64,000 nucleotides of DNA from contig JAJPKO010000016.1 of NCBI GenBank assembly GCA_021323655.1, forward strand, positions 1 through 64,000. The letters are read 5' to 3'. Below, one piece after another: positions 9,136 to 31,403 of the stretch. The position numbers and the translations under genes were made by a program. Position 1 is the stretch's first letter; every line of letters starts with the position of its first letter. Source of the DNA: Acidobacteriaceae bacterium (GTDB taxonomy: Bacteria > Acidobacteriota > Terriglobia > Terriglobales > Acidobacteriaceae). The notes beneath the pieces were generated by a model that was not told where the DNA came from, did not search any database, and worked only from the letters and a program-made list of their open reading frames with translations.

Positions 9136-9152
9136 CCTGTTTTCCTTGTACC

Positions 9153-11573: not shown

Positions 11574-11586
11574 GGGAGCTCTCCAT

Positions 11587-12309
11587 TCAGTCAATTGCCA
11601 CAACAAGGCACGTAATATTGTCGAAGCCGCCTGCGCGGTTGGCCGCCTCGACCAATTGATGACAGGCGTGTTCGGGCGAAAGCGATGCGACGAGGATGCT
11701 CAGGATCTCAGAGTTCGAGAGCATACGGGTCAGGCCGTCGGTGGCAAGCAGAAAGCAGTCGTCACGCTTTGCCTGCACCGATGTGACTTCAGGGACAACG
11801 AAATCTCCTGCGCCAAGGGCCTGCGTGAGGACGCCGTCGAGTTCCGGCGCTTCGCCCTGCAGCCCGCTGCGAAGGCGTGCGGCGAGCAGCGAATGGTCTT
11901 CGGTCAGGCGATGCAGCGCGCCATAGCGAAGCAGATAGGCGCGGCTGTCTCCCACGTGCGCGATCCACATGCGGCTGCTGTCAAGGTGCGCGGAGACAAT
12001 GGTGGTGCACATGCCGGAGTAGGCCGACTCGCGTGCGGCGGCGTTGCGCAGGGCGTGGTTTGCCTTCTGCACGACACGATGCAGAGAAGAGCCGCCGCTC
12101 GCGCCATTGACGCCAGGATGGAAATAGTCGAGCACGGTATCGAGCGCCAGCCGGCTGGCTACCTCCCCGGCCTGGTTGCTGCCTACCCCGTCACATACAA
12201 CAAAGAGGCCGCGATCTAGATCAAAGCCAAACGCATCCTCATTCATTCGCCGTCTGCGGCCTGGATGGCTTTCGCCTGCCGCACGAATACGAATCTCCAT
12301 AGCGCTCAT
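11587..12309 (-). CDS. PP2C-family Ser/Thr protein phosphatase of the T6SS operon
   Basis: A 240-residue PPM/PP2C phosphatase, the presumed antagonist of the Ser/Thr kinase encoded at 30.4 kb, comparable to PppA in the threonine-phosphorylation control of Pseudomonas T6SS. Metal-binding motifs are visible: RRRMNEDAFG (N-terminal Asp), VVCDGVGSNQAGE (DGxG), HVGDSRAYLLR, LLATDGLTRML (DG) and GGFDNITCLVV (DN). The length is that of a catalytic domain only, without membrane anchor, so it acts in the cytoplasm. Its ATG overlaps the stop of the FHA gene (ATGA at 12306-12309), implying translational coupling; vgrG begins 13 bases downstream. Confidence 0.92.
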   Translation of the reverse strand: MSAMEIRIRAAGESHPGRRRRMNEDAFGFDLDRGLFVVCDGVGSNQAGEVASRLALDTVLDYFHPGVNGASGGSSLHRVVQKANHALRNAAARESAYSGMCTTIVSAHLDSSRMWIAHVGDSRAYLLRYGALHRLTEDHSLLAARLRSGLQGEAPELDGVLTQALGAGDFVVPEVTSVQAKRDDCFLLATDGLTRMLSNSEILSILVASLSPEHACHQLVEAANRAGGFDNITCLVVAID

Positions 12310-14444: not shown

Positions 14445-14446
14445 GG

Positions 14447-17107: not shown

Positions 17108-17117
17108 GCGTGCTCCA

Positions 17118-18884
17118 TTACTCAAGGCGCCGGCGACGTGGGCGGTTCAGCGGTTCTTCCGGTGAGGGCGGCGTGGGTCGTTTGTCTCGTGGTGCCCACG
17201 GCGGCAAGGCATCCTCTGCTGGCTCCGTAGTCACAGCCGGCTGCGCAGGTTCCATCGGCCGCGATGAAGAAAAGCGGCCATTTCCAAGTGGCGGCGGTGG
17301 AGGTGAGTAAGAATCCACGGGCGGCGGCACGCTGGCGGGCCGCACCTTTTCATAGTCCGGCTCCAGGTTACGCACCGTCTGCTCCTGCGTACGACTCGCA
17401 TAAAAGCGGTGCCGGATAAACAGGAGCGCCGTGCGGATGGGATGATAGGCCTGCACGGTAACACGCAAGTCGGTGATCGTCGGCACGTCCGGAGCTTCAA
17501 AGTCGAACTCGAAGTTGTATTGCTCATCGAGCTTCGCTTCTGCGGAAAGGATGATCGCTTCGCGACGGAATCCGGTGCCTTCATTCAGTCGGATCTCCGC
17601 GCTGATGGTGGTGCCGCGCGAGAAGGGAGCGTCCCGCTCGCCCACAAGAATAAGCCGGTAGCGGTCGCGTCCTTCCAGGCGCAATTGCGAGAAGAAGATG
17701 GTCAGCTCGTCGGCCACACCCTGCACACGGCTTGGCTTCGCGGCCAGCTTGTAGAGCACCTTGCCGCCGCGATCGAAGATAAAGTTCATGCCATCGAGCG
17801 ACGGGCTGATGCGGAAGTCAATGTACTTGCCCTCAAGCGCGCGCTCCAGTTTTTCGAGCGCAGTGAGCGATTGCAACGCCGAACGCACTTCCAGGCTGAG
17901 ATCATCCGCCAGCTTCAGGGTACGCGTCGCATCCAGTTGCCGTTTCTGCCCTTCAATCAATGAGACGAGCTCAGTTTCGCCGGTTTCACGCAGCGTTTCG
18001 TAATACTGTTGCATGTTTGGGGCGAGGCTGAAGAAGGTGGCTGACTGATGCAGCAGCTTGCGCACCTGAATAAAGAAGCTCTGCGGCGATTGCGTGCGGT
18101 CCAGAATGCTGTACGCAATCTCCTCAAGCGCCAGTACCATGCGCTCGGCAAACTGTGTGGCGTCGCGGTCGACCTCAGTCTCAATGCCGCGCTCGGTAAA
18201 CAGCACCATAAATTCGCGCATGGCGCGATGCAGCTCTGCGTACCCCTGGGAAAGCCGCTGAATCGCTTCGACAATCCGGCGCCATCCCGCCATCAATTCG
18301 CTGTGCGCAGAAAGCGTCAGGCACGGTGGAATGTACAGCGGGTCCTTCTCAAAGTGCGCGCCGCTGGCTGGTCTGCGGATGCGAGCAATCGCCAGTGCCC
18401 GCTCCCGTTCGGCGGCCGTTACCTGCAATGCGATCCGATAGCTGTAGGTGCGCTCGCTGCGCATCTGCGGATTAAACTCATCCGCAACACCATCTATCTT
18501 GATACGCTGCGACGGGTCTATGATCACATAGATTTCCGCTTCGGCCACCCCGGCGAGTGCGTCTTTGTCGAACCGTCCAGCGATTGCGCCATCTTCATCA
18601 ACGTCAATCAGAAGGCCAGATGGAGTGAGCCCGCGGCACTGCGTTACAGAAATGTTCAGCGCTTCGCTGTTTTCGTCGAGATAGACAATTGGATCGAGCC
18701 GTACCGCGCCGAGGTCCGGCAACGGCAGACGCACACCGCCGCCAATCAGACCATGTCCGGCGCTCATGTATCGCAGGCCCCAGTAGAACAGCGATTCAAA
18801 ATATTCTTCCAGGCGCAGGAAGTGCTCCGGGGTCAGGAGCATTCCATGTTCCCAATTGACCGATCTCAAACGAAGCGAGTCCAT
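17118..18884 (-). CDS. tssK: T6SS baseplate protein TssK with atypical Pro-rich tail
   Basis: A 588-residue TssK homologue, the baseplate subunit that in canonical systems trimerises and binds the TssL/TssM membrane complex. The family signature at the N terminus is clear: VNWEHGMLLTPEHFLRLEEYF. A helical middle (about 200-350) follows. The usual TssK is about 450 residues; this one has an extra beta-rich C-terminal section (about 360-500) and a final 80-residue proline-rich, positively charged tail (SYSPPPPPLGNG ... RPRRRRLE) that is probably disordered. Since TssL and TssM are not encoded here, the altered C-terminal half may bind a different membrane partner. Downstream clpV begins 10 bases after the stop. 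Confidence 0.82.
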   Translation of the reverse strand: MDSLRLRSVNWEHGMLLTPEHFLRLEEYFESLFYWGLRYMSAGHGLIGGGVRLPLPDLGAVRLDPIVYLDENSEALNISVTQCRGLTPSGLLIDVDEDGAIAGRFDKDALAGVAEAEIYVIIDPSQRIKIDGVADEFNPQMRSERTYSYRIALQVTAAERERALAIARIRRPASGAHFEKDPLYIPPCLTLSAHSELMAGWRRIVEAIQRLSQGYAELHRAMREFMVLFTERGIETEVDRDATQFAERMVLALEEIAYSILDRTQSPQSFFIQVRKLLHQSATFFSLAPNMQQYYETLRETGETELVSLIEGQKRQLDATRTLKLADDLSLEVRSALQSLTALEKLERALEGKYIDFRISPSLDGMNFIFDRGGKVLYKLAAKPSRVQGVADELTIFFSQLRLEGRDRYRLILVGERDAPFSRGTTISAEIRLNEGTGFRREAIILSAEAKLDEQYNFEFDFEAPDVPTITDLRVTVQAYHPIRTALLFIRHRFYASRTQEQTVRNLEPDYEKVRPASVPPPVDSYSPPPPPLGNGRFSSSRPMEPAQPAVTTEPAEDALPPWAPRDKRPTPPSPEEPLNRPRRRRLE

Positions 18885-18899
18885 TTCTTCCTCAATTTC

Positions 18900-19826
18900 T
18901 TACAACGAGCCTGCGCTTTCGCAGCCCTTGCCCAGATAGCTGTTGATCTGCAAACGGCAGTTTCGTTCCGCGATTCCCAAGCGCGGTGCCTGTTCCGGAT
19001 CGAGCACTACCCAGCGCAGTTCGTAATCCAGATGCACCGGCAGCACCAGCGCCAGCAGGCGGTCCAGCAAATCGCGCCCTTCGCTGCCCAGATATTTTTC
19101 GTAAGTAGCCAGCGGAACTGGCCCTATTTCTACGCGCAGATGGGCCATGTCATAAAACGCATCGCCCACAATAAAGTCCAGCCCGATTCGTGATGCTCTT
19201 TCCCCCAGGCGCGTCTTGGTCGGGTGCTTCAGGACTGCGAGCGAATGCCGGAAGGACGACGAGTTTACCGGAAGCCCGAGCACGCGCTCCAGCGCTGTCT
19301 TCACAGCTTCCTCGCTCCCGGCAATCGAAGGCAGATCCAGCAGCAGGAGCGCCAGCCTGTACCAGAGCGAGCGTGGCCACTCCTCCGGAGCAATGCCGAA
19401 AAGGCTGATCCATCGCGCACACGCAGCCAGATTGTCCGGCGCAAGACGCAGCAGCGATGCGCCTTCATACATCCAGTGCGTCAGTTTTTCTAAAGGATCA
19501 TCCAGGACTTCAAGCAGCTCGCGCGTACCTGGCTCGGCTTCACCGCCGCTGTCCCACATGGCCACAGGCAGACTGTGGTGAAAGGCAGGCCCCGCCACCT
19601 GAAGCTCGATCATGCCATCCAGGGCCCCTCCTGGAGCAGGCGACTGACCCACGACAGTGCCATGCGGAACGCTGTGCCACCCGACGGGACGTATGTGGAT
19701 GCGCGAAACGGGGACCTGCAAGCGCGCGAGGCAAGTCAGGGCCGAATGCAGATTGTGCTGAAATCCATGCGTACCTGAAACAAAGTCAGGCATGGTCCTC
19801 GGAAGCGTCACTGGAGCGGCGCTCAT
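18900..19826 (-). CDS. tssG: T6SS baseplate protein TssG with PASTA-like segment
   Basis: A 308-residue TssG/VasB-type baseplate protein, expected to form the wedge with TssF and TssE. The start at ATG 19826 is chosen because it makes an ATGA overlap with the tssF stop; an upstream start at 19847 is less likely. The C terminus shows the TssG-like pattern LGIAERNCRLQINSYLGK. Near the N terminus, VPHGTVVGQSPAPGG followed by MIELQVAG resembles a PASTA repeat (GtVisQsPapG then a beta strand), unusual for TssG. The assignment rests on both sequence pattern and its invariant position between tssF and tssK. Confidence 0.75.
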   Translation of the reverse strand: MSAAPVTLPRTMPDFVSGTHGFQHNLHSALTCLARLQVPVSRIHIRPVGWHSVPHGTVVGQSPAPGGALDGMIELQVAGPAFHHSLPVAMWDSGGEAEPGTRELLEVLDDPLEKLTHWMYEGASLLRLAPDNLAACARWISLFGIAPEEWPRSLWYRLALLLLDLPSIAGSEEAVKTALERVLGLPVNSSSFRHSLAVLKHPTKTRLGERASRIGLDFIVGDAFYDMAHLRVEIGPVPLATYEKYLGSEGRDLLDRLLALVLPVHLDYELRWVVLDPEQAPRLGIAERNCRLQINSYLGKGCESAGSL

Positions 19827-21529
19827 GCAACCACCCCCTGCTTCCACTCAAATTGAATATCGAGGTGCGTGCCGTGTAGCATCCGTGCCTGCAGAAGGCG
19901 CTTCAGCTCCTCCTGCAAAATGGGCAGCTCAATTTCCGGACGCGTGAAGCCGTCCGCATCCAGCGTGATCCAAAGACGTTCCAGGCGATGCAATCCATGC
20001 TCGCCGCGTTCGATTTCGCTTCTTACATCCACGGCCAGAATGCGGCGGTCAAAGCCCAGCGCGGTGGATTCAAGGTCGCTCCGCGTGACAATGCGTCCAC
20101 GCGTCAGGAGCGCGTTTGAGAAGCGGCGGCGCGCGTCAGAATAATCTTCGTCATCGGTGCCGCCTGCGGCTGCGGTCAGATGGTTCACCCGGATCTGATC
20201 AAAAGTTGCGCTACTGGCAAAGCCTGTAATGTCTCCGGGAGCAACCAGATTACCCAGCTCGCCATTTGTGAGCCACAGACGAATGTTTGCGCCTGTCTGT
20301 CGCGTGCCGTCGGGTCTAAGGCCGGGGTGCAGCGTGATCCTCTCTTTGGTGATCTCGTACCAGCCTTCTGCCGGGTTCGCAGTATTTCCCGGAGCTGAGT
20401 GGTAAATCTCATTGTCCAGACCGGAGACCGAGAGCGGCGCGACCAGCATCTGCCGCAGACCATGATGGCCACGCGTGATCGGCACCGAATAGCCATCCTG
20501 CTCAAAATGCACCGTCTGGTTCAGGCAGAAGAGGTTCGACGCCGTTGTGGCGTGCAGAATGATGCCGTGTATCGCCGTATGCAGCGCCGGCACATTCGCC
20601 GGAAGCGGTACCTTGATCCAGGCGCGCGGCGTCTCAAACCAGGAGCGCAGGTCGTGTCCCGCGAGACGCGAAAGAGGAACATCCAGCAGCCGTGGCACTC
20701 CGCAGAGCAGCTTCCGGTCGTCCACAATCTCCGGAAACAGAAAGGCACGTCCTGCATAAAAACCATCCGGCAAATCAGGAAGGCCCTCTTCTCTCCGCGC
20801 GCGCTGCGAAGATGCAACCTGCCACTCCAGTTGCCGCACACCGCGATGCACGCGATGCGGACGCATCAGTCCCTTGTCGCTTAGATCACCATCTTCTCCG
20901 AAAAACCACCAGGGCTCAGAAATAAGCCCCTGCTGAATCGAGTAGGCCCCTGCGCTTAAATCAAAGAACAACCCATGGTGGCTGAGGTGCGCAGGCCCCA
21001 GATTTTCAACCGCCAGAAAGATGGCGGGCTGCGGCCCAAGATTCACACGGACAGGATCATACGAAGGACGATACGTTGCGAATGACTCCGAAATGTCCAC
21101 CCCGGGGAGCAGTTGCAGTTGCTGCTCCTGATAGACCAGGGCCAGGGCAATCTGCGCGGGAGAAAGTGCGATGCTCACATCTGTGGCAAAACTCAGCCTC
21201 TCGCCGGTGGCCGCTTTCGCATTCAGTTCAGTGCCGGTTCGCAGTGTTTTGGCGTGCGGCCCGTTGGAGATGAACCGTACGACCGTCTGTGCGGGATGCG
21301 CGTAGCGCCCGGGTAGCTTGATGCCAGCAATCAGATCATCCAGCAGCTTTTCACGAATACGCCCGGTATTGGCATAGACCGATTCAATCTGATGAGCAAA
21401 CGTCCGGAAGATAACAGCAAGCACCGGGTCGAGGACATCCACCGTGATGCCAAAGTCCTTCAGCCGGCGGCGAAAGTCCTCGCGTAGTTTATGGTCAATT
21501 TCAAGAATTCCTGGCGTTTGAAAGCTCAT
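19823..21529 (-). CDS. tssF: T6SS baseplate protein TssF
   Basis: A 568-residue TssF/VasA homologue, the baseplate-wedge protein related to phage gp6/gpJ. It begins with the long amphipathic helix region typical of the family (AVIFRTFAHQIESVYANTGRIREKLLDDLI), has beta-rich middle parts (GPAHLSHHGLFFDL, PWWFFGEDGDL) and the C-terminal gpJ-like signature (SDARRRFSNALLTRGRIVTRSDLE). Its ATG overlaps the tssE stop and its stop overlaps the tssG start, so tssE-F-G are translationally coupled. The length is close to the family norm of roughly 550-620. Confidence 0.83.
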   Translation of the reverse strand: MSFQTPGILEIDHKLREDFRRRLKDFGITVDVLDPVLAVIFRTFAHQIESVYANTGRIREKLLDDLIAGIKLPGRYAHPAQTVVRFISNGPHAKTLRTGTELNAKAATGERLSFATDVSIALSPAQIALALVYQEQQLQLLPGVDISESFATYRPSYDPVRVNLGPQPAIFLAVENLGPAHLSHHGLFFDLSAGAYSIQQGLISEPWWFFGEDGDLSDKGLMRPHRVHRGVRQLEWQVASSQRARREEGLPDLPDGFYAGRAFLFPEIVDDRKLLCGVPRLLDVPLSRLAGHDLRSWFETPRAWIKVPLPANVPALHTAIHGIILHATTASNLFCLNQTVHFEQDGYSVPITRGHHGLRQMLVAPLSVSGLDNEIYHSAPGNTANPAEGWYEITKERITLHPGLRPDGTRQTGANIRLWLTNGELGNLVAPGDITGFASSATFDQIRVNHLTAAAGGTDDEDYSDARRRFSNALLTRGRIVTRSDLESTALGFDRRILAVDVRSEIERGEHGLHRLERLWITLDADGFTRPEIELPILQEELKRLLQARMLHGTHLDIQFEWKQGVVA

Positions 21530-21888
21530 TGCTCAGCTATTTCAGATCGAACTGTCGTGGTATATCGCTCATTTCCTGATACAAGTGTGACCGTATAAAC
21601 ATCGTAGTCGCGGCGCTCAGACACCTCTCTTACGATCTCTTCCACCATAAAATCAACAAACCCCAGTTCCTGCAGTGCTGCATTTGCGCGTTCCTGGGCC
21701 AGCCGCGGAGCATCTGCGCGAAATCTCGCATCTTCCAGAAGGTCGCGCACGCCGAAACTGGGGCATGCCTTCCATGACCCTCCCGGCGTTCTTGCCATCA
21801 ATTGCATAAGAAAAAGGATGGCGGCGGACCTCTCCGACCTGCGGAGAAATCCGCCTTCCTCTACCCGTAATGGAAAAGAGAGAAACAA
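21526..21888 (-). CDS. tssE: T6SS baseplate protein TssE (gp25-like)
   Basis: A 120-residue gp25/TssE-like protein that should initiate sheath assembly in the baseplate. The N terminus (SFPLRVEEGGFLRRSER) matches the short beta segment that starts gp25 domains and the rest (QERANAALQELGFVDFMVEEIVREV, then YTVTLVSGNERYTTTV) the alpha-beta core. The start is TTG 21888 (weak SD GGGAACGAAG); a shorter form from an internal ATG would lose the conserved N-terminal strand. It overlaps tssF by four bases. Confidence 0.7.
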   Translation of the reverse strand: MFLSFPLRVEEGGFLRRSERSAAILFLMQLMARTPGGSWKACPSFGVRDLLEDARFRADAPRLAQERANAALQELGFVDFMVEEIVREVSERRDYDVYTVTLVSGNERYTTTVRSEIAEQ

Positions 21889-21917
21889 CTTCGTTCCCGT
21901 TTCTTTCTATGCCGGGT

Positions 21918-22364
21918 TTAGTTGCTGATGGTGACGTCCTTGAAGTTCTGCTGGTTCAGGGCAGGTTCCACTTCCAGCACCAGCATGTGGTTGACTCCGA
22001 TGTGATCATTGTCGGAGGGCTGACCATTCTGGTACGGGTTCAGAGTGTGGAAGCTGGAGATCCAGCCTTTGAAGTTGTAGCTGACCAGTGCATCCTGCTT
22101 CGCGTCATCTTTCCAGAACTCGACCTTGATGTCGCGGATCTTGTCCCGCGTGACCACATTGGAAAGATCAAACAGCTTCTTCAGCGTGCTGAATGGCAGG
22201 TTCTGATCATCGTGAAAATCAACATATGCTTTGATGGACGTGGTCAGGCTCCCCATCTGGGGCATGCCGGCACGGTCTTTCTCGGTTTGCAGTGCGACGG
22301 AGACGGAAACACAGTCAAACTTATTCCCATCAATCGTAAGGGTGCTGCGGTTCGGTGATGCCAT
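21918..22364 (-). CDS. hcp: Hcp/TssD tube protein, paralogue B
   Basis: A 148-residue inner-tube protein of the Hcp/TssD type; hexamer rings stack inside the sheath and are expelled. It is a beta-barrel sequence beginning NRSTLTIDGNKFDCVSVSV and ending NHMLVLEVEPALNQQNFKDV. It is an obvious paralogue of the upstream gene (22383-22862), with blocks such as FHDDQN, PFST, KLF, NVVTRDKIR, WKDD, KQDALVSY and EPALNQQNF shared; this copy has a shorter loop before the last strands. The two copies are separated by 18 bases. Confidence 0.82.
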   Translation of the reverse strand: MASPNRSTLTIDGNKFDCVSVSVALQTEKDRAGMPQMGSLTTSIKAYVDFHDDQNLPFSTLKKLFDLSNVVTRDKIRDIKVEFWKDDAKQDALVSYNFKGWISSFHTLNPYQNGQPSDNDHIGVNHMLVLEVEPALNQQNFKDVTISN

Positions 22365-22382
22365 GTCTGTCCTGTCTCCTTT

Positions 22383-22862
22383 CTAGTTGCTGACCTGCAC
22401 GTTCTGGAAGTTCTGCTGGTTCAGAGCAGGTTCAATGTCCAGTACAAGCAGATGGTTGGTGTTGCTGTAGATGCCGCTCACAAAGTTGTCCTCGTCGCTG
22501 TTCGTCGCCGTTGCGCGGACAAAATCCAGTGGGTTGCTTGTTTCAAAGCGGCGGATCCAGCCATTAAAGCTGTAGCTGACCAGCGCATCCTGCTTGGAAT
22601 CGTCTTTCCAGTACTCGATCTTGATCGAGCGTATTTTGTCGCGCGTTACGACATTTGCGAGATTGAAAAGCTTTTGGACTGTGCTGAAGGGAATGTTCTG
22701 GTCATCATGAAAGTCCGCCCACACGCGGACTGAAGTTGCCAGACTCCCCATTTGTGGTACACCCGACCGGTCTTTTTCCGTGCTGAACCGGACACTCGTA
22801 GAGATGGCATCAAACTTCGTGCCATCAATCGTAACTGTCGTGCGATATGGTGATGCTGCCAC
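22383..22862 (-). CDS. hcp: Hcp/TssD tube protein, paralogue A
   Basis: A 159-residue Hcp/TssD-type tube subunit. GTG 22862 is preferred to the longer TTG start (22880) because AGGAGA sits six bases upstream and the N terminus then aligns with paralogue B (ASPYRTTVTIDGTKFDAIS). Compared with B it has an insertion of about ten residues in the loop preceding the last strands (ATNSDEDNFVSGIYSNT). Tandem Hcp genes may build mixed tubes or carry different effectors; which applies here is unknown. Confidence 0.82.
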   Translation of the reverse strand: MAASPYRTTVTIDGTKFDAISTSVRFSTEKDRSGVPQMGSLATSVRVWADFHDDQNIPFSTVQKLFNLANVVTRDKIRSIKIEYWKDDSKQDALVSYSFNGWIRRFETSNPLDFVRATATNSDEDNFVSGIYSNTNHLLVLDIEPALNQQNFQNVQVSN

Positions 22863-22892
22863 GCGTTCTCTCCTACTCAACAGAATTGTGGA

Positions 22893-23348
22893 CTACGTCT
22901 TGTTTCCTGGCGAAGCGGTTGGAAACCGCCGCCGAAACAGTGCTCTCAACAGGAAACCAGGGAAGGCAACCGTAGACGAATCTACTGGCAGGTCTGATGC
23001 GCGCTCTTTTTCAGGAGCAGCAGCATTCATTGTTTTTTCATTTGGTGATTGGATTGTTTTCCTGATTTGTACTTCCGGAGCAGAGGCTGCTGACTGCGGT
23101 TCCGCAGGCATTGCCTCCCCCGCTGCTGTCGGCGCACCATTCTCAAAGCGGAATGGCTTGCCTACTCGCGCCGACAAAGTAAAACCGTGGACCGTCCTCC
23201 CGATGGAAGCGTCATACTGGCGCTGCTCGGCATCACGCGCCGCCGTTCCTCCGTCTATACGGCGGAACGGCACAGGACGCGGCTCCTGTTCAGCCTTGCG
23301 TGCGCTGTCTCCCGGCTCGATACTCTTCTTGTGCGGCCCAAAAGACAT
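22893..23348 (-). CDS. Hypothetical disordered protein inside T6SS operon
   Basis: A 151-residue protein of no recognised family. It has charged, Pro/Ala/Glu-rich composition without predicted membrane segments, suggesting intrinsic disorder (RKAEQEPRPVPFRRIDGG; AAPEKERASDLPVD). It lies between tssC and the first hcp, co-oriented with 21- and 30-base gaps, so it is probably co-transcribed. It could be an adaptor, chaperone or substrate, but nothing in the sequence decides. Confidence 0.6.
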   Translation of the reverse strand: MSFGPHKKSIEPGDSARKAEQEPRPVPFRRIDGGTAARDAEQRQYDASIGRTVHGFTLSARVGKPFRFENGAPTAAGEAMPAEPQSAASAPEVQIRKTIQSPNEKTMNAAAPEKERASDLPVDSSTVAFPGFLLRALFRRRFPTASPGNKT

Positions 23349-23369
23349 AATCCAACTTTCTACAGGCTT

Positions 23370-24722
23370 CTATGCCTGCTTCGCTTCAGGATTCGTCGGT
23401 TTTGAAAATTCAGGCACATCAATTTTCAACACAAATGTTTCCGCAGGGCCCGTCGGCATCACGTTCAAGGTAATATCGCAGATGCCTTGCATGCGCTTGT
23501 TCGAATCCTTGTCCACAAATAGGTCGTAGCTGAGGATCGTCCCCTGCTCCACCTGTTCATCCAGCAGGCGCTTCAGGGGCGCCTCAATCTGCTGGTCCAT
23601 AAAGTCGCGCGTCAGTACCTGTCCGGCGACCTGCAACAGATAGTGACGGCAGCACCGCTCAAGGTATCGCAAAATTCGATAGGACGTGAAAAATTTCAGC
23701 ACACCGTAAGGATCGTCCGCCTGCGTGCGGCAGCCGAAGAAGCACAGATGATTGTCGGCATCGCGAATCACCGGGATCAGCTGCCGCTCCATGCTCAGGT
23801 GCTCCATCTCGCCAATCAATGGCTCAATGCGCGCCTTCTCCGCCCCATGCACTCTGCCAAATCGTGATCCCACCGGCCCCTGCGCCAGCCCCTGCGCATC
23901 ATCAGCGCGGGCAACAGCCCCGGCGAATGCCACCGATGGCGGCGCGTAGAGGCCATCCATCACCTGGTCCTTCTCAAACCAGTACGGCGATCGAAGCTGC
24001 AAGTATCCCATCAGGCAAACATCCGCTGCGGCCTGGTCTTCAGGCCGCTTCAGGAATTCATACTTACCGCCGGGAAGGAAATTCCGCTCCACGTTCTTGA
24101 AAGACTTCTCGTCATCCAGGTCGCTGATCAGCAACATGCCCCACTGGTTTGCAATCTGCTCAAACTTTTCACGAATGCTTTGCGGATAAAATCCCGGCAC
24201 AACCAGATTGCAGATATCGTCGCGAAAATTGAAGTTGTCATTGCGGGATTTCACGAAATTTTCAATCGCCGCGACGCTCATGCTGAAGATGTCCTTCATG
24301 GCCGCAACATCGGCGTTCAGAATGTACACCTCAACCGGCTTGCGCACCTTCCCGTCCATCACCTTGCTGTTCTCAAAGAACAGTTGCAATTGACGGTAGC
24401 TGCGCTCAATGGGACGAATCTGCTCAAACACCTGCGCCAGCAATTCGTCCCGCACGCCTTCCGCTTTCTCAATCTGCTGCTGCAGCTTCTGGACCGTGTC
24501 GTTGTAGCTGTCCGTCTCAGACAGCAGCTGGTCAAAATTCGTCAGTTGCGACAGAAATTCTTTCGCCGACTGCGGAGTAAAGATGCTGGCCAGCTCGCGT
24601 TTTTCGTCCGTAAGCGCCGGGTGCAGGTCCGCAAAAATGTCCTGCAACAGCTCGCGTGCAGGGGAATCTGCAATCAGCTCTTCGGTGGTCTTGGTGCGCG
24701 TGATCGTTTGCGTATCTGCCAT
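23370..24722 (-). CDS. tssC: T6SS sheath large subunit TssC
   Basis: A 450-residue TssC/VipB homologue, a contractile-sheath building block that pairs with TssB. Recognisable parts are the N-terminal helical region (LSQLTNFDQLLSETDSYNDTVQ), the core VEVYILNADVAAMKDIFSM, PGFYPQSIREKF, the segment FLPGGKYEFLKRPEDQ, and the C-terminal handshake domain (SYRILRYLERCCRHYLLQVAGQ ... SYDLFVDKDSNKRMQGICDITLNVMPTGPAETFVLKIDV). It is somewhat shorter and more divergent than proteobacterial TssC (about 490-500). Its ATG overlaps the tssB stop (TAATG), ensuring equal translation. Confidence 0.88.
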   Translation of the reverse strand: MADTQTITRTKTTEELIADSPARELLQDIFADLHPALTDEKRELASIFTPQSAKEFLSQLTNFDQLLSETDSYNDTVQKLQQQIEKAEGVRDELLAQVFEQIRPIERSYRQLQLFFENSKVMDGKVRKPVEVYILNADVAAMKDIFSMSVAAIENFVKSRNDNFNFRDDICNLVVPGFYPQSIREKFEQIANQWGMLLISDLDDEKSFKNVERNFLPGGKYEFLKRPEDQAAADVCLMGYLQLRSPYWFEKDQVMDGLYAPPSVAFAGAVARADDAQGLAQGPVGSRFGRVHGAEKARIEPLIGEMEHLSMERQLIPVIRDADNHLCFFGCRTQADDPYGVLKFFTSYRILRYLERCCRHYLLQVAGQVLTRDFMDQQIEAPLKRLLDEQVEQGTILSYDLFVDKDSNKRMQGICDITLNVMPTGPAETFVLKIDVPEFSKPTNPEAKQA

Positions 24723-25225
24723 TACTGTTTACCCCCGTTTGCAACCCGCTCCAGCTCGCTGCGCAGCTTGCCCAGCGCCGCAATGATTTCCTTGCGCTGC
24801 GCCTCATTCGCCCACGCCCGCCGCACAGTCGGCAGCTTCCACCGGTCTTTCAGCCGGTACAGCAAATCAATATTCGTTTTCAGATCTGCAATGTCGTTCC
24901 GCAGATACTCAACTTCGCCGTCCTCTTTGCGTATCTCCTGCTTTTTCTGCAGGTTTTCCGGATCGAAATCCTTGATGCTCCGGAACCGGAACTCGGCCTT
25001 GAATTCGGCCTCATCTTCTCCAGCATGCCCGGTAAACTTCAGCTTCGGCTGAAACTTACGGAACGCGTCGTTCAGGTCTTCGACCTTCACCGGCTCTTCG
25101 TTTTCTGAAGCCGCCTCAGCCCCGATCCTTTCCGGCGTCATGGGCAACATCATGGCGCACGTAGAGGTAGGTACTTTTCTTACGTGCGGCGTAACTCCTT
25201 TTCTGACGACTTTAATCAGCGGCAT
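24722..25225 (-). CDS. tssB: T6SS sheath small subunit TssB
   Basis: A 167-residue TssB/VipA homologue. Family features are FKAEFRFRSIKDFDPENL followed by a helical C-terminal half (DIADLKTNIDLLYRLKDRWKLP and EIIAALGKLRSELERVANGGKQ). The N terminus is atypical, with two short basic segments (MPLIKVVRKGVTPHVRKV) and an acidic linker where a proteobacterial TssB normally begins with SIQ.KL. The stop overlaps the tssC ATG; the upstream VWA gene ends 34 bases away. Confidence 0.85.
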   Translation of the reverse strand: MPLIKVVRKGVTPHVRKVPTSTCAMMLPMTPERIGAEAASENEEPVKVEDLNDAFRKFQPKLKFTGHAGEDEAEFKAEFRFRSIKDFDPENLQKKQEIRKEDGEVEYLRNDIADLKTNIDLLYRLKDRWKLPTVRRAWANEAQRKEIIAALGKLRSELERVANGGKQ

Positions 25226-25259
25226 CGAAACATTCTCCTTTGTAAGTCTCGTTCAATCT

Positions 25260-26696
25260 TTATTTCTTCCCCTGGGAAGCTGCACTCGTCAGGTCAGGCC
25301 GAGGCCTGACTTGTGTGACCTGGGCCGCCGAGCGCTGCGGCGAACTGGCTCCTTCCGCATCAAACCCGTTCGGAGTGCTCTTTACCTGCACGCCTGAAGC
25401 CTGCACCGAGGCTTCCTTGCTCCAGCGGCGCCGTGTGCCCGAAGCTGGAAGGCCATTGTATTCACCCCGCCAAGCAATGCGCGGCACCCAGAACCATAGC
25501 AGCAACAATATTACGCCGAGCCCGCAAAATACCAGAATGCCGCGCAAAACGACGGACCATCCGGAAATTGCCGGGGGTTCTACAGACGCTAGTGCCTCCA
25601 GTGCCTCGCGGCCCAGATGCCCCTCATACAACGGAAAGCCCATCGCTGGTGGAACATAGGAAATCGTCTGGCTCGCCAGGTTCGTTCCGCCCAGCAGGTG
25701 CAGGTTGAAAACAAACTCCGCATTGCGCGCTGCCAACGAATGCCGGTCCGTCACCGGAGCAAGAAACGCAATCTCCAGGTCAGCTGGATGCACTGGGGCA
25801 GAAGAGCGGAACACCTGGGCCAGCTGCGCCGGATCGGACGCCAGAAAGTACCGCGTGGAGAGGCGCTTCAGGGCCTCCGCATCAATATCATTAGCATTCC
25901 CAAAACCAATTCCAATCACGTCGTATCCGGCATCGCGGACCTTCGCCGCTGCCTGTTCCAGCCCCAGCGGCCCGTCAAGCAGCACTGGATCGTCGCCATG
26001 GAAGACTTCGTTCTTGCCATCGGTCATCACGATCAGCTGCGCCGTCAGATTGCTTCGCAGCGTGCCCTTCTTCTCCAGCCGTGCAAGCTCCGCATTCAGC
26101 GTGTCCACTCCTGTGAAGACTGCCTGGTACAATGCCGTGTTGTTCTTTGGCCCAGGATCGGGCAGTGCATTCAGTTGCGCCACAGCCTGTTCCCGCCTGG
26201 TGGTAAACACAGCCGACTGGATCGTTGGCACCACATGATGGCTCTCAAACGGAACAATCGCTACTTCATCCACGCCGTCCTGCATCGTGGCCAGATAGTT
26301 TTGAATGGCCTGCTTGGCTGCGGTAAAGCGGCTGGTCCCCGGCGCGACCGTTTCATTCATGCTGCCGCTGATGTCAATTTCGATCAGCACAATGTCTGGC
26401 CGCGCAATGGCATCGCCACCCCCAGTTGCCTTTACATAGAACGGCGTAATCGTGCCGCTGGATGTCTGAATGGAAACAGCCTGCGTCAGCCGGTCCTGCG
26501 GCGGCAGAAGTACCCCGGCAGGAAGACCGTTGTGGTCTACTGGACTTAAATTGACGGTAAAGCAAGGGACCAGCGTCACCGGAGCGCAGTCATGCAGAGC
26601 AACCGGTCGTGTCTGGCGCAAAGCCACCGGGGGTGCCGCAACCGCATTTACAGCGGCAGCGAACAGAATGCAGGACAGGAGCGCGCCTTTCTTCAT
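25260..26696 (-). CDS. Membrane-anchored VWA-domain protein of the T6SS operon
   Basis: A 478-residue protein with a cleavable-looking signal peptide (MKKGALLSCILFAAAVNAVAA), a von Willebrand A domain with an intact MIDAS (DISGSMN, then a downstream Thr and MTDGKN, about residues 105-300), a beta-sandwich region (about 300-370), one TM helix (VVLRGILVFCGLGVILLLLWFWV) and a roughly 80-residue charged cytoplasmic tail. The VWA domain is therefore periplasmic. In Pseudomonas the T6SS kinase PpkA carries a VWA domain too; here the kinase and VWA are separate genes. It may substitute for part of the missing trans-envelope complex. ATGA overlap with the upstream FHA gene. Confidence 0.85.
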   Translation of the reverse strand: MKKGALLSCILFAAAVNAVAAPPVALRQTRPVALHDCAPVTLVPCFTVNLSPVDHNGLPAGVLLPPQDRLTQAVSIQTSSGTITPFYVKATGGGDAIARPDIVLIEIDISGSMNETVAPGTSRFTAAKQAIQNYLATMQDGVDEVAIVPFESHHVVPTIQSAVFTTRREQAVAQLNALPDPGPKNNTALYQAVFTGVDTLNAELARLEKKGTLRSNLTAQLIVMTDGKNEVFHGDDPVLLDGPLGLEQAAAKVRDAGYDVIGIGFGNANDIDAEALKRLSTRYFLASDPAQLAQVFRSSAPVHPADLEIAFLAPVTDRHSLAARNAEFVFNLHLLGGTNLASQTISYVPPAMGFPLYEGHLGREALEALASVEPPAISGWSVVLRGILVFCGLGVILLLLWFWVPRIAWRGEYNGLPASGTRRRWSKEASVQASGVQVKSTPNGFDAEGASSPQRSAAQVTQVRPRPDLTSAASQGKK

Positions 26697-27646
26697 TGCT
26701 CCCCCTGCTTTCTGGTGGTAAAGCGCAGCGCAGTCCGGCCAATCAGAATATCGTCGGCTTCGGTCAGCTCCTGTGATGTGGTGACTGTCTTCCCGCGTAC
26801 CCTCAGCACATATTTCGCAATGCCTGCAGGTCCGCCCGCATCTGGATGCCGCGCAATATAAAAGCGCCCTTCTTTGGAAAAGAGCACTGCATGACGGGCC
26901 GCCATCGAAGCATCAGGGATGAAAATTTCTGCGCCCGGCTGAAAGCGCGTCTCAGATTGCGAAGTCGCCAGATTGCCGACAACGTAGGTTTCCTCATGCT
27001 GCAATTCCCAATACTTGTTCGCGCGGCCATACTTGCTCTGTGCGCGCGCATCGGCGCTGCTGATGAACTGCACTGCTCCATCGCGAATCAACAGCGGAGC
27101 CAGCCCTGCTCCAAAACCAATTCCAGCACCCGTCAACATAAGCCCGGCCGCCTGACAGAGTTCTGGCTGGTGTGAGCCAAAACCAACAAATAGTAATCCT
27201 CCCAGCAAACCGCCCGCAAGACCTCCGGTATAGGTGTGCAGGATTCGTAATTTGTTCGTCGTCAGCCAGCGAGAGCCAATTCCCAAACCAAGGATGGAGG
27301 CGGCCAGCGCCCAGCCAGCCAGCCGGTACAGTACCGGAGATTCCGCAGAGACATTCGCGCGCAGAAACCAAAGCACCACAGCGGCGATCAAAGCAGACGA
27401 GATGGCGATAAGAACACCAAGGCCGATCGTCCTCCAGCGGAACGACCGCCCGGAAAAACGGTCCAGTTGCACAAGCAGAAATGGAATGAGAAGGACCGCA
27501 ACCAGCCCAAGAAGAAGCGTATCTGCCGCCCAGCCGGCAGCGGATGTCTGTATCGCTGCGCCAACGACAGCCTGGATGCCCCATGCCACGAGCCCGGCCA
27601 ACGCGCCTGAAAGGGAGGAAAAATATATCAGACGAAGGAAATCCAT
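26693..27646 (-). CDS. Six-TM protein with C-terminal FHA-like domain, first gene of T6SS operon
   Basis: A 317-residue integral membrane protein. About six hydrophobic helices are visible in residues 1-195 (e.g. TLLLGLVAVLLIPFLLVQ; GVLIAISSALIAAVVLWFL; AGWALAASILGLGIG; GGLAGGLLGGLLFVGFG). A cytoplasmic C-terminal domain (about 205-317) has FHA features: YVVGN, IFIPDASMAARHAVLF (in place of S-R-H), FYIARHPD and VRGKTV; the usual G-R/S-x-x-H/N-G signature is partly changed, so phosphothreonine binding is plausible but not assured. It is the promoter-proximal gene and overlaps the VWA gene by four bases. It may be the inner-membrane platform that recruits phosphorylated partners. Confidence 0.75.
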   Translation of the reverse strand: MDFLRLIYFSSLSGALAGLVAWGIQAVVGAAIQTSAAGWAADTLLLGLVAVLLIPFLLVQLDRFSGRSFRWRTIGLGVLIAISSALIAAVVLWFLRANVSAESPVLYRLAGWALAASILGLGIGSRWLTTNKLRILHTYTGGLAGGLLGGLLFVGFGSHQPELCQAAGLMLTGAGIGFGAGLAPLLIRDGAVQFISSADARAQSKYGRANKYWELQHEETYVVGNLATSQSETRFQPGAEIFIPDASMAARHAVLFSKEGRFYIARHPDAGGPAGIAKYVLRVRGKTVTTSQELTEADDILIGRTALRFTTRKQGEQ

Positions 27647-27797: not shown

Positions 27798-28904
27798 ATG
27801 CGTATAGTACGGGAAAAGATGGGCCTTCCAAAATTAACTCGAACCAGTTACCAGTCGTGCAGCATAGAAACCCTGTCCGTGGCCTTGGTCGGCCTTGGCG
27901 CACTGGGTAGTGAAATTGCCAGACTCCTCGGACTTCTCGGAGTGGCAGCCGTTGCATTAGTTGATAACGACACAATCGAGTCCGTCAACACTTCACAAAA
28001 CATATTTTTTCGCACCCCCGATGCTTTGCACCGGCCTAAAGCAGAAGTAATAGCAGAGAAAGGGTTTATCTACTTTCCAGATACCCGATGGATACCGCTC
28101 GCGTGCGAAATCGCGGACGCGGGTTTCAAGCCACTCAAAGATTGCGCGCTTATCATCAGCGCGACCGACAGCGCCTTGTCTCGAGTCGAAACTGCCTATG
28201 TCAGCAGGCGGCTCCATGTCCCGATGTTAGACACCGGATTATCAGGACCTGCCTGTTGGCGCGGACGGGCAGCATGGTTCCCGGCTGAAAGTAGCAGCGC
28301 ATGTTACTGCTGCCAGTTAAGTGAGGACCGCAGGGCAGAAGTCCTCTCGATGACCTGCTCCCCCGTTCTGAGCTGCCTCTGGAGTCCGGAGAATCTGGAC
28401 ATGCCGAGCACTCCCACCATGGCTTCCGTGGTCGCCGGTATGGCCATAGACCTCGCCTTCCGTCATGGACTGTCTCGAAAACAGGAGCAGTCCTTTGCCT
28501 GGGACATAGACCTGGACAGCCCGCCTGAACTGCGCCAGCACAGCCTTATCCGGTCTGTCACCTGTCCATTTCATGACTTCCCCGCTAGCGACGTACTCAC
28601 AGAACTGGACCACGACGCGCCATTCCAGCACTCCCTTACGGCGCTTGGAGCGCAAGCCATCCAGCTTGACTGGCCCGTGGCCACCGATGCAACATGCCTG
28701 AGTTGCCACCACAACTGGCAACCATTATGCAGGCTCGGCTGGCTCAGGCGCTATGGGAAATGCCCCCGCTGCGGGGAACCAGTCAAGGTGCGCTGGCACG
28801 CCATAGACCGCATCCTTACAAACACTGCGGAAGCAGGTTTTTCTCCCGCAGATTTGTCATACTCTAAAGACCATTTGTTTACGCCGGTTTACCATACTCG
28901 GTAG
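27798..28904 (+). CDS. E1-like ubiquitin-activating enzyme (ThiF/MoeB fold) with zinc ribbon
   Basis: A 368-residue E1-superfamily adenylyltransferase that should adenylate the C-terminal glycine of the ubiquitin-like protein encoded two genes later and pass it as a thioester. The Rossmann loop GLGALGSE (about 32-39), ATP/Mg segment DNDTIESVNTSQN (56-68) and SATDSALSRVE (121-131) are conserved. CYCC at 169-172 corresponds to the first zinc-cysteine pair, and TCSP with Cys187 is at the catalytic-cysteine position before the crossover helix (STPTMASVVAGMAIDLA). The C terminus adds a separate zinc ribbon (CLSC 300-303, CPRC 322-325). A second start (ATG 27819, with GGGAAAAG upstream) is possible. 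The E2 and RING genes downstream favour E1 of a conjugation cascade over a plain MoeB/ThiF enzyme. Confidence 0.86.
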   Translation: MRIVREKMGLPKLTRTSYQSCSIETLSVALVGLGALGSEIARLLGLLGVAAVALVDNDTIESVNTSQNIFFRTPDALHRPKAEVIAEKGFIYFPDTRWIPLACEIADAGFKPLKDCALIISATDSALSRVETAYVSRRLHVPMLDTGLSGPACWRGRAAWFPAESSSACYCCQLSEDRRAEVLSMTCSPVLSCLWSPENLDMPSTPTMASVVAGMAIDLAFRHGLSRKQEQSFAWDIDLDSPPELRQHSLIRSVTCPFHDFPASDVLTELDHDAPFQHSLTALGAQAIQLDWPVATDATCLSCHHNWQPLCRLGWLRRYGKCPRCGEPVKVRWHAIDRILTNTAEAGFSPADLSYSKDHLFTPVYHTR

Positions 28905-28913
28905 AAACGAACC

Positions 28914-29633
28914 ATGACGGCACGCTCAGGCACTATTGCACAAATCAGCGGACTGCTTGCCATTGCCTTCACGCTTTCCCTCATTGCGGGCATCGCCGGA
29001 AGCGCAGCCCTTATCGCCGCCACTGTACTCATCGGTGTGGCCACTCCTTTTGTGGCTTACTTCTGCGATATCAACCCTGTCCGCTGGTGGATCCTGCCCA
29101 CCGTGCTTTCTGTCACCTTCTGCGTGGCCCTGGTGGTCCTCGCCACTACCCGCCACATCGGAGCATTCACCTGGGCGCTCCCCGCTTTGCTCTTCGCTGT
29201 GATTGCGATCGCCTCCTTGCTGAGCAAAATGGCGAAACGCCGCTGCGCTTTATGCCACCGGCGTCTTGGCCCTCATGCCATTACGTTTGATTGCCCACGC
29301 TGCGGACTTGAGGTCTGCGACGAGTCCTGCTGGAACTTTGAGCACCGCCGCTGCCGCATGTGTGAGGAAAACCATGTGCCCATCCTGCCTGCGCAAAGCC
29401 AGTGGTGGGACCGCCAGCTCGGCCCGCGCGTGCATCAGGGGCGTTGCCAGTTGTGCATGGCATCGCCCGAACAGGCAGACCTGCGTATTTGCAGCCACTG
29501 CCACCGCCCGCAATGTCGTGACTGCTGGGACCAGGCTAACGGCGAATGCAGCCGCTGCGGCTGGACCATGCCCAATCTGCCCAAATCTCTCGAGACCGTG
29601 GCAGTCCATCTGCCCGCCCATCTGGAGCAATGA
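28914..29633 (+). CDS. Membrane protein with tandem RING-like (binuclear treble-clef) domains, candidate E3
   Basis: A 239-residue protein with about three hydrophobic helices (10-50, 58-78, 86-105) and a cytoplasmic C-terminal part holding two eight-cysteine zinc modules. Module 1: C111-C114, C127-C130, C135-C139, C147-C150. Module 2: C178-C181, C193-C196, C201-C204, C212-C215. The almost identical spacing (CxxC, 11-12 residues, CxxC, 4, CxxC or CxxxC, 7, CxxC) fits RING-like binuclear treble clefs rather than simple zinc ribbons. Between E1 and modifier genes, it is the obvious candidate E3 or membrane scaffold that recruits the E2. It starts nine bases after the E1 stop; its stop lies just before the modifier start, so coupled translation is likely. 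E3 activity is inference. Confidence 0.78.
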   Translation: MTARSGTIAQISGLLAIAFTLSLIAGIAGSAALIAATVLIGVATPFVAYFCDINPVRWWILPTVLSVTFCVALVVLATTRHIGAFTWALPALLFAVIAIASLLSKMAKRRCALCHRRLGPHAITFDCPRCGLEVCDESCWNFEHRRCRMCEENHVPILPAQSQWWDRQLGPRVHQGRCQLCMASPEQADLRICSHCHRPQCRDCWDQANGECSRCGWTMPNLPKSLETVAVHLPAHLEQ

Positions 29634-29635
29634 CC

Positions 29636-29896
29636 ATGCCTAAATTTCAAATGTATTTCGATACGGTTCGCGGTGAGACGCGTTACAACGTTGACATAGA
29701 TGAAAACGAAACACTCTCTGAAGTGCTCGAAGAAATTCTGTTCGACCTCCGCGAGCGCGGCGATGTGCTTGCCGGAGAAGGCGAACCTCAGGTCATCTGG
29801 AACGGCCAGAGCCTCGACTTTTCCATCCCGCTATATCAGCAGGGCGTGCGGCCCAACGATGTTCTCCGCATCTCCACCATCGCCACAAACGGGTGA
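29636..29896 (+). CDS. Ubiquitin-like beta-grasp protein (YukD/EsaB-like) ending in glycine
   Basis: An 86-residue beta-grasp protein. Start: ATG 29636 is preferred to ATG 29630 because GGAG at 29624-29627 is eight bases from the former and only two from the latter; longer in-frame forms lie inside the preceding gene. Pattern: strand FQMYFDTV, strand TRYNVDIDEN, helix TLSEVLEEILFDLRERGD, strand PQVIWNGQSLDF, and PNDVLRISTI, matching the ubiquitin order with the conserved late G-V-R-P-N-D-V-L segment seen in YukD-like proteins. It ends ...TIATNG, with a single exposed C-terminal glycine available for adenylation without processing, consistent with the absence of a JAB protease gene in the window. 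It is flanked by RING-like and E2 genes and ends next to the E2 start. Confidence 0.82.
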   Translation: MPKFQMYFDTVRGETRYNVDIDENETLSEVLEEILFDLRERGDVLAGEGEPQVIWNGQSLDFSIPLYQQGVRPNDVLRISTIATNG

Positions 29897-29898
29897 CC

Positions 29899-30435
29899 AT
29901 GCCAGCGCTACGCGAACGCAGGCTCGCCCATGAATGGGAAGCCCTGCAGCAGTTCAAGGCCAGTTCTCCCGGCAGGCTTACGGAGATCGACCGCGCAGGT
30001 GACGAGGCATTCCTTCTCACGGTGGCCGAAATGCCCGCACTCTGCCACGCCCCCGGAGACGACTGGGCCTCCGCCCTCTGCAATCGCCATTCGCTGAAAA
30101 TTCTGTTCCCGCGCTACTACCCCGCCATGCCGTGCGAAATCTATCTTTCGCGCCCGGTATTTCATCCCAACGTGGATGAAGTAAACGGCTTCGTCTGTCT
30201 CTGGAACAGGTACAGCACCGCATATACCAGCCTCCATGCATTGACGCAGCTGGCAGCCATCCTGGCCTGGCGCCTGATGAACACTGAAGCCATCCATCTC
30301 CTGCAGCCCACTGCTCTCGACTGGTACAACAGCACCGGACAGGCCTCGGAAAAGCTGCCTCTTTCGCGCGCTCCGTGGATCGAGCTTCCCGGACTGTCCA
30401 TTCACGGTCGGCCCTCCCGGAGGCGCTTGTCGTGA
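29899..30435 (+). CDS. E2-like (UBC-fold) conjugating enzyme
   Basis: A 178-residue protein with the E2 hallmark: FHPNVDEVNGFVCLW, i.e. His89-Pro90-Asn91 and the catalytic Cys100 nine residues later, preceded by the strand-turn LKILFPRYYPAMPCEIYLSRPVF and followed by the helix YTSLHALTQLAAILAWRLMN and the C-terminal helix region LLQPTALDWYN, as in the UBC fold. The ATG 29899 lies 3 bases after the modifier stop; an in-frame GTG at 29893 overlaps it. It should accept the modifier from the E1 as a thioester. Proline-containing HPN and Cys are intact, so catalysis is plausible. The tail PSRRRLS is shared with the next gene's product. The stop overlaps the kinase start (GTGA). Confidence 0.84.
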   Translation: MPALRERRLAHEWEALQQFKASSPGRLTEIDRAGDEAFLLTVAEMPALCHAPGDDWASALCNRHSLKILFPRYYPAMPCEIYLSRPVFHPNVDEVNGFVCLWNRYSTAYTSLHALTQLAAILAWRLMNTEAIHLLQPTALDWYNSTGQASEKLPLSRAPWIELPGLSIHGRPSRRRLS

Positions 30436-31403
30436 TCTCGCTCAACCTCTTTACATTCAGGACGCGCGCCGACAATCCCTCCGCGCAAAAGGCCAATCTT
30501 CCCGAACTCTCCAGCCGGCTTGAGACCATCCTTGCGGCAAAGTACCGTCTCGTGAAGCACCTCGGCTCAGGCGGCATGTCCACCGTGTGGCTCGCGCGCC
30601 ACCGCGTCCACGGAGCACTCTTCGCCATCAAAGTGCTTCATCCATTTCTGGGCGAGCACCCTCAGTTCCGTGAGGCCTTTGTCCACGAAGCTGCTCACAC
30701 CGCCGTGCTGTCCGGCCATCCCAATATCGTTCCCATTTTTGACATAGACCATGCGGACGGACTGCACTACATCGTCATGCCCTATGTTCGCGGGCACGAT
30801 CTGGACCAGGTGCTGCAACAGTGCGGTACGCTCAATCGCGCCGACGCCCTGACCGTGGCGCTTGAGATCGCCAGTGCGCTGGCGTATGCCGAAGAGCGCG
30901 GCATCATCCACGGGGACCTCTCCCCGGGCAACGTCCGGATAGACGGGTTCGGACGTGTTCTGCTGCTTGATTTCGGCCTCTCTGCCCCGCAGCATGTCTT
31001 TGCCCCCAACAGTAGCGTTCTGCTCGGAACACCGTACTCCATGAGCCCTGAGCGACTTGCTGGCGAGCGGCCCGGCATCCGCTCGGACCTCTACTCGCTC
31101 GGCGTGCTCCTCTTCCACATGCTGATCGGCCATCCGCCATTTGAAGGAAAATCCGTCGAGGCCATCGAAAAATGGCATCGGGAAGGCGTCTTGCACTTCC
31201 CTGACGCCTTTACCCAGGGCCACAAGTCGCTGGCCGAACTTATCGAGCGTCTGCTGGCAAAACACGTCCAGGACCGCCCAGCGAACGCAAAATCACTGGA
31301 AACGTTGCTCCGCGACCTCGGCGCAGAAAGCCACCCGCTGGAACTCTCTCACGACCTGCCCGCCGACGAAAAAATCGGAGCAATGCGCCGCCGCTTGTCG
31401 TGA
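30432..31403 (+). CDS. Ser/Thr protein kinase, soluble, with variant catalytic loop
   Basis: A 323-residue Hanks-type kinase. GTG 30432 is chosen since it forms a GTGA overlap with the E2 stop; longer in-frame starts lie inside the E2 gene. Motifs: glycine loop LGSGGMSTVWLA, AIKVL lysine, HEAAHTA (alpha-C Glu), catalytic loop HGDLSPGNV, DFGLS, activation-segment GTPYSMSPERL (APE equivalent SPE), and DLYSLGVLLFHML. The catalytic loop has Gly for Arg in HRD and Ser for the usual Lys two residues after the Asp, so it is an atypical but probably active kinase. There is no TM segment and no sensor domain; the C terminus is short and ends MRRRLS. PP2C and two FHA proteins across the promoter complete a phosphothreonine circuit comparable to PpkA/PppA/Fha of other T6SS. 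Confidence 0.88.
   Translation: MISLNLFTFRTRADNPSAQKANLPELSSRLETILAAKYRLVKHLGSGGMSTVWLARHRVHGALFAIKVLHPFLGEHPQFREAFVHEAAHTAVLSGHPNIVPIFDIDHADGLHYIVMPYVRGHDLDQVLQQCGTLNRADALTVALEIASALAYAEERGIIHGDLSPGNVRIDGFGRVLLLDFGLSAPQHVFAPNSSVLLGTPYSMSPERLAGERPGIRSDLYSLGVLLFHMLIGHPPFEGKSVEAIEKWHREGVLHFPDAFTQGHKSLAELIERLLAKHVQDRPANAKSLETLLRDLGAESHPLELSHDLPADEKIGAMRRRLS

Follow-up and report, generated by a model that had tools for sequence, protein, structure and literature searches.

The window analysed here, the first 64,000 nucleotides of contig JAJPKO010000016.1 from a soil bacterium of the Acidobacteriaceae (GenBank assembly GCA_021323655.1), carries at positions 27798-31403 a cassette encoding an E1-like enzyme, a membrane zinc-finger protein, a ubiquitin-like modifier (Ubl), an E2 and a protein kinase. 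On the other side of a short intergenic region lies a type VI secretion system (T6SS) cluster, and we consider it reasonably probable that the cassette encodes a Ubl-conjugation cascade dedicated to one T6SS subtype of Terriglobia (Acidobacteriota), acting on this machine and regulating it. This reading builds on what is directly seen, namely the gene content, the folds, the invariant catalytic residues, the near-strict linkage of cassette and T6SS across genomes, and the shared C-terminal tails. The initial annotation had treated 27798-31403 as a complete unit. Its four conjugation genes stand, but the stretch is only half of the locus, to which the upstream T6SS genes also belong. The presence of the cassette inside a T6SS locus, along with FHA, VWA and PP2C genes, changes its likely function.

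The predicted conjugation cassette

The cassette is encoded on the plus strand as follows.

27798..28904, plus: E1-like ThiF-fold activating enzyme, 368 aa (Pfam ThiF 5.6e-22; PDB profile matches; invariant columns in 24 relatives)
28914..29633, plus: membrane zinc-finger protein, candidate E3-like scaffold, 239 aa (16 invariant Cys; AlphaFold2 (AF2) model; FYVE/RING-type matches)
29636..29896, plus: Ubl, ubiquitin-like modifier, 86 aa (AF2, Foldseek and VIA; C-terminus STIATNG)
29899..30435, plus: E2, UBC fold, 178 aa (Pfam UQ_con 2.4e-7, above cut-off; PDB profile search; C-terminal tail RRRLS)
30432..31403, plus: Ser/Thr protein kinase, accessory, GTG start (Pfam Pkinase 1.3e-38; C-terminal tail RRRLS)

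These five open reading frames (ORFs) lie where they had been annotated, with a 9-base gap between the E1 and finger genes, a 2-base gap between Ubl and E2, and a 4-base overlap between E2 and the kinase; an upstream ATG at 29630 is a possible alternative start for Ubl. The order E1, finger protein, Ubl, E2 is constant in all T6SS-linked relatives whose loci were read completely. Since this four-gene order is conserved, the catalytic residues and the 16 zinc cysteines are invariant and the Ubl fold is modelled with confidence, the cassette is not a chance assembly. The kinase had been counted as a further member, but its membership is not constant: no match was found in six loci of a second clade (L030, L036-L039, L043). 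In Bryobacteraceae the kinase is fused to an FGE-sulfatase domain.

Linkage of the cassette and the T6SS across genomes

The sheath protein TssC of this clade was found in 16 of 200 genomes of the order, and 15 of the 16 also carry the cassette, as scored by its E2. The exception is a genome (G178) in which the contig with TssC breaks off within the FHA gene, before the place where the cassette would start; no such E2 turned up on its other contigs. E2 matches in three genomes without this TssC (G032, G041, G119) were rejected as members of other E2 families. The cassette adjoins FHA-VWA-TssB-TssC in 14 of the 15 relatives read, and the fifteenth is an 8-kb contig from a genome with TssC elsewhere. 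Within the order, the linkage of cassette and T6SS is near-strict.

A wider survey of 347 genomes across the phylum found Ubl in seven, TssC in seven and both in six, the unmatched cases being G416 (Ubl without TssC) and G381 (a distant TssC match with 23% identity). Scanning about 85,000 species genomes for Ubl returned 20 loci, partly from the same genomes as the order set; in 18 of them the fragment also holds T6SS genes, and the remaining two lie on short fragments. By their titles all come from Acidobacteriota, apart from a metagenome bin that carries the label Arcobacter but has Bryobacteraceae-like genes. Neither Ubl nor E2 had a match on plasmids. In Bryobacteraceae, the cassette shares a strand with FHA-VWA-TssB-TssC but is separated from it by other genes; given that the same linkage is found there under a different gene order, the link survives rearrangement. 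In one Bryobacteraceae locus (L048:14298-16385), the genes that separate the cassette from FHA-VWA-Tss include one for a caspase-fold/TPR protein.

Components of the predicted cascade

The E1 has a ThiF fold in which G32, G34, G37, D56, N64, K81, D124, R129 and Cys193 are invariant in all 24 sequences, together with a CxxC at 169/172 and a C-terminal zinc ribbon (C300/303/322/325). A profile built from these 24 sequences matched UBA7, MoeB, ThiF, SUMO E1 subunit 2, BubCD and Cap2 in the PDB. The nucleotide-binding motifs are intact, as had been annotated. Cys187, previously taken as the active site, was ruled out since its position is not conserved among relatives, and the invariant Cys193 is most likely the putative thioester Cys. 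In E2, His89, Asn91 and Cys100 are invariant in 24/24 sequences of the alignment of relatives. When the 24-sequence E2 profile was searched against the PDB, UBC-fold E2s ranked top (best 6e-6), which together with the Pfam match upholds the UBC fold and the HPN...Cys100 arrangement assigned to the 29899-30435 product. Judged by sequence, the case for thioester-cascade chemistry is good.

The 86-residue Ubl was modelled by AF2 with a mean pLDDT of 90 in the strand-strand-helix-strand-strand order of a beta-grasp, and its Foldseek neighbours are the EccD Ubl of ESX-5, ubiquitin, NEDD8 and SUMO. The top match is the EccD5 Ubl (2.9e-4, TM 0.60), level with many ubiquitins. Alignment to SUMO2/3 with VIA-align gave a Z of 10.9 and a root-mean-square deviation (rmsd) of 2.0 over 75 residues, and in several VIA-align rows Gly86 falls on Gly76 of ubiquitin. 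No Pfam or NCBIfam model matched the protein. The C-terminal Gly is invariant in 27/27 aligned sequences; all 26 aligned T6SS-linked Ubls end in Asn-Gly, and the reading frame closes right after. The modifier is thus encoded in its mature, Gly-ended form in every T6SS-linked relative, in keeping with the earlier view that it needs no processing. That view also held that a JAB-type deconjugase is lacking, and no JAB gene was found among the proteins of the T6SS/cassette locus. Two JAB-domain matches occur elsewhere in the same genome, on other contigs. A second E1-like frame (506 aa) together with a JAB-domain match was seen in this genome (G000:C46:58320-59577; L006, L090), and the two perhaps form a separate Ubl system.

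The cassette proteins differ in conservation. Identity among T6SS-linked relatives is 69-80% for Ubl and 27-47% for E1 and E2, and the mean pairwise distance is 0.25 for Ubl and 0.24 for TssC, against 0.59-0.63 for E1, E2 and the finger protein. A sheath-like constraint on Ubl combined with fast-evolving enzymes fits a modifier with more than one T6SS partner or with tightly bound ones.

The finger protein has N-terminal transmembrane helices followed by two eight-Cys fingers (C111-C150 and C178-C215). None of the 16 zinc cysteines varies among the 23 sequences, and the zinc part was modelled with a pLDDT of about 90 or more. The finger spacing, Cx2C-x4-Cx2-3C, departs from that of classical RING. 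The first finger resembles FYVE domains (Z 6.1, rmsd 2.2, 47 aligned) and the second resembles RING-type domains of HOIL-1, Deltex and PML (Z 4.1-4.7). A PDB profile search returned mostly RING E3s (RLIM, NOT4, Arkadia) at E about 0.01, and Foldseek with the whole model gave no match below 0.001. With scores that are middling, the modelled fingers are likely of the binuclear treble-clef type, FYVE-like in the first and RING-like in the second. Of the tandem eight-Cys RING-like membrane protein described initially, the membrane anchor and the tandem fingers are supported, but the RING likeness belongs mainly to the second finger. Simple zinc ribbons, considered for the cysteines of the 28914-29633 product, are not favoured, as FYVE, RING and PHD folds match better.

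The T6SS cluster and the shared C-terminal tails

The T6SS cluster occupies 8182-27646 on the minus strand, divergent from the cassette, and contains the following genes.

26693..27646, minus: membrane protein with degenerate FHA domain (FHA 0.038, below cut-off)
25260..26696, minus: VWA-domain protein (VWA 1.9e-11)
24722..25225, minus: TssB, sheath (T6SS_VipA 3.9e-5, at cut-off; 59-81% identity in relatives)
23370..24722, minus: TssC, sheath (PF17541 2e-23; 66-86% identity in relatives)
22383..22880, minus: Hcp-like tube protein 2 (by context, conserved position beside TssC; no Pfam or PDB match)
21918..22364, minus: Hcp-like tube protein 1 (by context, conserved paralogue of Hcp-like 2; no significant Pfam match)
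21526..21888, minus: TssE-like small baseplate protein (by context, conserved place before the TssF-like gene; no family match)
19823..21529, minus: TssF-like baseplate protein (TIGR02243 3.5e-5 and TIGR03359 TssF 0.0048, both far below cut-off)
18900..19847, minus: TssG (PF06996 8e-15)
17118..18884, minus: TssK (VasE 8.6e-10; TIGR03353 4e-15; C-terminus RPRRRRLE)
14447..17125, minus: ClpV-type AAA+ ATPase (AAA_2 2e-53; ClpB_D2-small 1.4e-20)
12306..14444, minus: 3-keto-disaccharide-hydrolase-type domain with C-terminal FHA (domain matches)
11587..12309, minus: PP2C phosphatase (9.1e-17)
9153..11606, minus: VgrG with C-terminal VRR_NUC nuclease domain, an effector-fused spike (Phage_base_V 3.5e-23, Phage_GPD 5.8e-11, VRR_NUC 0.0013)
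8182..9135, minus: TsiV-type immunity protein to VRR-NUC (PF11876 1.4e-42)

The FHA membrane gene and the E1 gene diverge from a shared 151-bp intergenic region, a pairing that is conserved in Acidobacteriaceae loci. The upstream cluster is a T6SS, with TssB/C, TssK, TssG, ClpV and VgrG found and TssF represented by weak matches only. The Hcp and TssE identities were assigned by position only, family and PDB searches having left them unconfirmed by sequence. No match to the TssM family (PF06761) was found in the whole genome, nor to TssJ, TssL or TssM among the locus proteins, with TssJ and TssL searched at the locus only. A T6SS without a canonical TssM family match marks a subtype, as in T6SS-iii, and its identity as a T6SS is not excluded thereby. 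The protein joining a hydrolase-type domain to FHA (12306-14444) is constant in this T6SS cluster. The VgrG-VRR-nuclease and TsiV genes (8182-11606) likely form an antibacterial effector pair in Acidobacteriota.

In all 15 relatives whose TssK end can be read, the protein ends in PRRRRLE after a variable linker; two genomes enter this sample twice, from different sources. The tail is still invariant where TssK identity drops to about 43%. The tail of E2 is RRxRLS, and many kinases, including most of those in the clade of these relatives, end alike. Among 620 locus ORFs of at least 150 aa, taken from stretches that exclude TssK ends, only E2 and kinase ORFs have an RRxRL-type C-terminal tail. 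The likeness of these tails suggests a common docking site that would bring E2 and the kinase to where TssK binds. The end residue is E in TssK (RRRRLE) and S in E2 and the kinase (RRxRLS), a difference that might act as a phospho-switch. An RRRRLE-like motif also occurs near the N-terminus of about 300-aa proteins encoded near VgrG (L081:12085-13026, L082:1961-2866, L084:13646-14545), which have no Pfam match.

Proposed mechanism and alternative readings

The route that we infer, from thioester transfer through the zinc-finger protein, docking and substrate to a regulatory outcome, would run as follows. E1 would adenylate the C-terminal Gly of Ubl and then bind Ubl in a thioester, with Cys193 as the most likely site, from which Ubl would pass to Cys100 of E2. 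The membrane zinc-finger protein may recruit E2~Ubl at the membrane, and the TssK-like RRxRL tail may bring both E2 and the kinase to the machine. Ubl would then be attached to a T6SS component or membrane anchor and so control assembly or firing, working beside the kinase/FHA/PP2C arm. In a bolder form of this proposal, Ubl conjugation would be obligatory in the assembly, anchoring or firing of this T6SS subtype without a canonical TssM. It would be the first weapon used between bacteria to depend on an E1-E2 cascade for its construction or its triggering, and E2, TssK and the kinase would all dock via one C-terminal peptide (RRxRL-S/E). We put this form forward only tentatively, as something that may well prove wrong.

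Several observations weigh against a dedicated, regulatory cascade. The case for the cascade is one of sequences and models. The Ubl/E1/E2/FHA/VWA/PP2C module can exist independently of this T6SS: G416, a distant relative from another family of the phylum, encodes PP2C, E1, a Ubl-GGG-E2 fusion, a membrane JAB, a membrane protein resembling the FHA one and VWA (L078:4313-9041), with no T6SS genes on that contig and no TssC found in its fragmented genome. This JAB-bearing variant was found in G416 itself only, among 38 genomes of its class. The fused Ubl of G416 would have to be cut, and the neighbouring JAB gene is what such a need for processing would lead one to expect; the T6SS-linked Ubl is made mature and its locus has no JAB. 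The distances of the cassette proteins correlate with those of TssC (r 0.66-0.87), a correlation that partly reflects the species tree. As for the finger protein, Prok-RING_2 matched two stretches at 0.0011, below the family cut-off, and the first finger is more FYVE-like than RING-like. One clade has the E2 motif shortly before the end instead of at it. Finally, the Ubl fold is also close to EccD/YukD, structural parts of the type VII secretion system, although no FtsK-type ATPase or WXG100 protein was found among the locus genes.

The last point leads to the main rival, in which Ubl is mainly a structural T6SS part, like YukD/EccD or the Ubl domain of TssN, and E1/E2 attach it once and constitutively, with no regulation. 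The top Foldseek match to the EccD Ubl of ESX-5, a conservation equal to that of TssC, the genome's lack of a TssM-family match, the lack of JAB in the locus and the predicted Ubl-fold domain in TssN of the Bacteroidota T6SS (PMC10781749) all suit it. The kinase, FHA and PP2C genes nevertheless point to regulation, even though they could act separately, and we regard a purely structural Ubl as unlikely, if a serious contender. It is improbable that the cassette is a Ubl system for phage defence, of the Bil, Bub or CBASS-like kind, that just happens to lie on one island with the T6SS. Known bacterial Ubl-like conjugation does act in defence (PMC10097602), and PADLOC E1 models match our E1 (best 8.7e-11), but these matches span the general nucleotide-binding part only, and the locus has no JAB, E1-E2 fusion or CD-NTase. 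The near-strict link to one T6SS clade, kept under changed gene order, and the tail common to E2 and TssK also speak against a defence module.

More improbable still is an ATG8-like conjugation in which the target of Ubl at the T6SS anchor is a lipid of the membrane or an amine of the envelope and not a protein; the single terminal Gly and the membrane-bound finger protein would agree with it, but E2 is UBC-like with a canonical HPN. A ThiS/MoaD-like sulfur-carrier or cofactor pathway using E1 only, prompted by the ThiF superfamily membership of E1, is scarcely credible given an intact E2 (Cys100, HPN), a Ubl tail of NG and not GG, and a locus with no sulfurtransferase or cofactor genes.

Comparison with known systems

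Burroughs, Iyer and Aravind are said to have predicted, in 2011, bacterial operons of a YukD-like Ubl, E1, E2 and RING. The likeness to such operons is that a stand-alone E1, an E2, a RING-like finger protein and a YukD-like Ubl are neighbours in both. The T6SS of Pseudomonas is under PpkA-Fha1-PppA control, and its cluster includes kinase, FHA and PP2C genes, as here. Unlike in Pseudomonas, an E1-E2-Ubl-finger cascade is added at our locus and the genome has no TssM-family match.

Bacterial E1/E2 operons, some with Ubl, were described as types 6a-6e by Iyer et al. in 2006 (PMC1779556). JAB domains are present in the types shown there, E1 and E2 are fused in some, and certain E2s lack the classical His; in contrast, the locus described here combines a stand-alone HPN E2 with membrane zinc fingers and a T6SS, and has no JAB. 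Bil/Bub and type II CBASS have an E1 of the same superfamily, with BubCD and Cap2 among the PDB matches, but our locus has neither JAB nor CD-NTase and is tied to a weapon system instead of a defence module. The Bacteroidota T6SS-iii (PMC10781749) shares with it a PF17541-kind TssC, the absence of a visible canonical membrane complex, and a Ubl fold; in T6SS-iii that fold is a domain of the membrane protein TssN, whereas the Ubl of our locus stands free as a modifier and has enzymes of its own.

Bacterial E1-E2-Ubl sets as such were already known (PMC1779556), and what appears new here is their join with a T6SS; a literature search of partial coverage found no publications joining a Ubl conjugation cascade to a T6SS. 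If the proposed reading is true, a kinase arm and a ubiquitin-like arm stand beside one bacterial machine, and the common tail of TssK and E2 offers a lead to the docking site. With four small proteins and culturable hosts such as Granulicella and Edaphobacter, this would be a compact system for ubiquitin-type signalling with a membrane finger protein. Where the role of a known bacterial E1-E2-Ubl system has been tested, it lies in phage defence, and a cascade bound to a contractile weapon would represent a new biological use of this chemistry.

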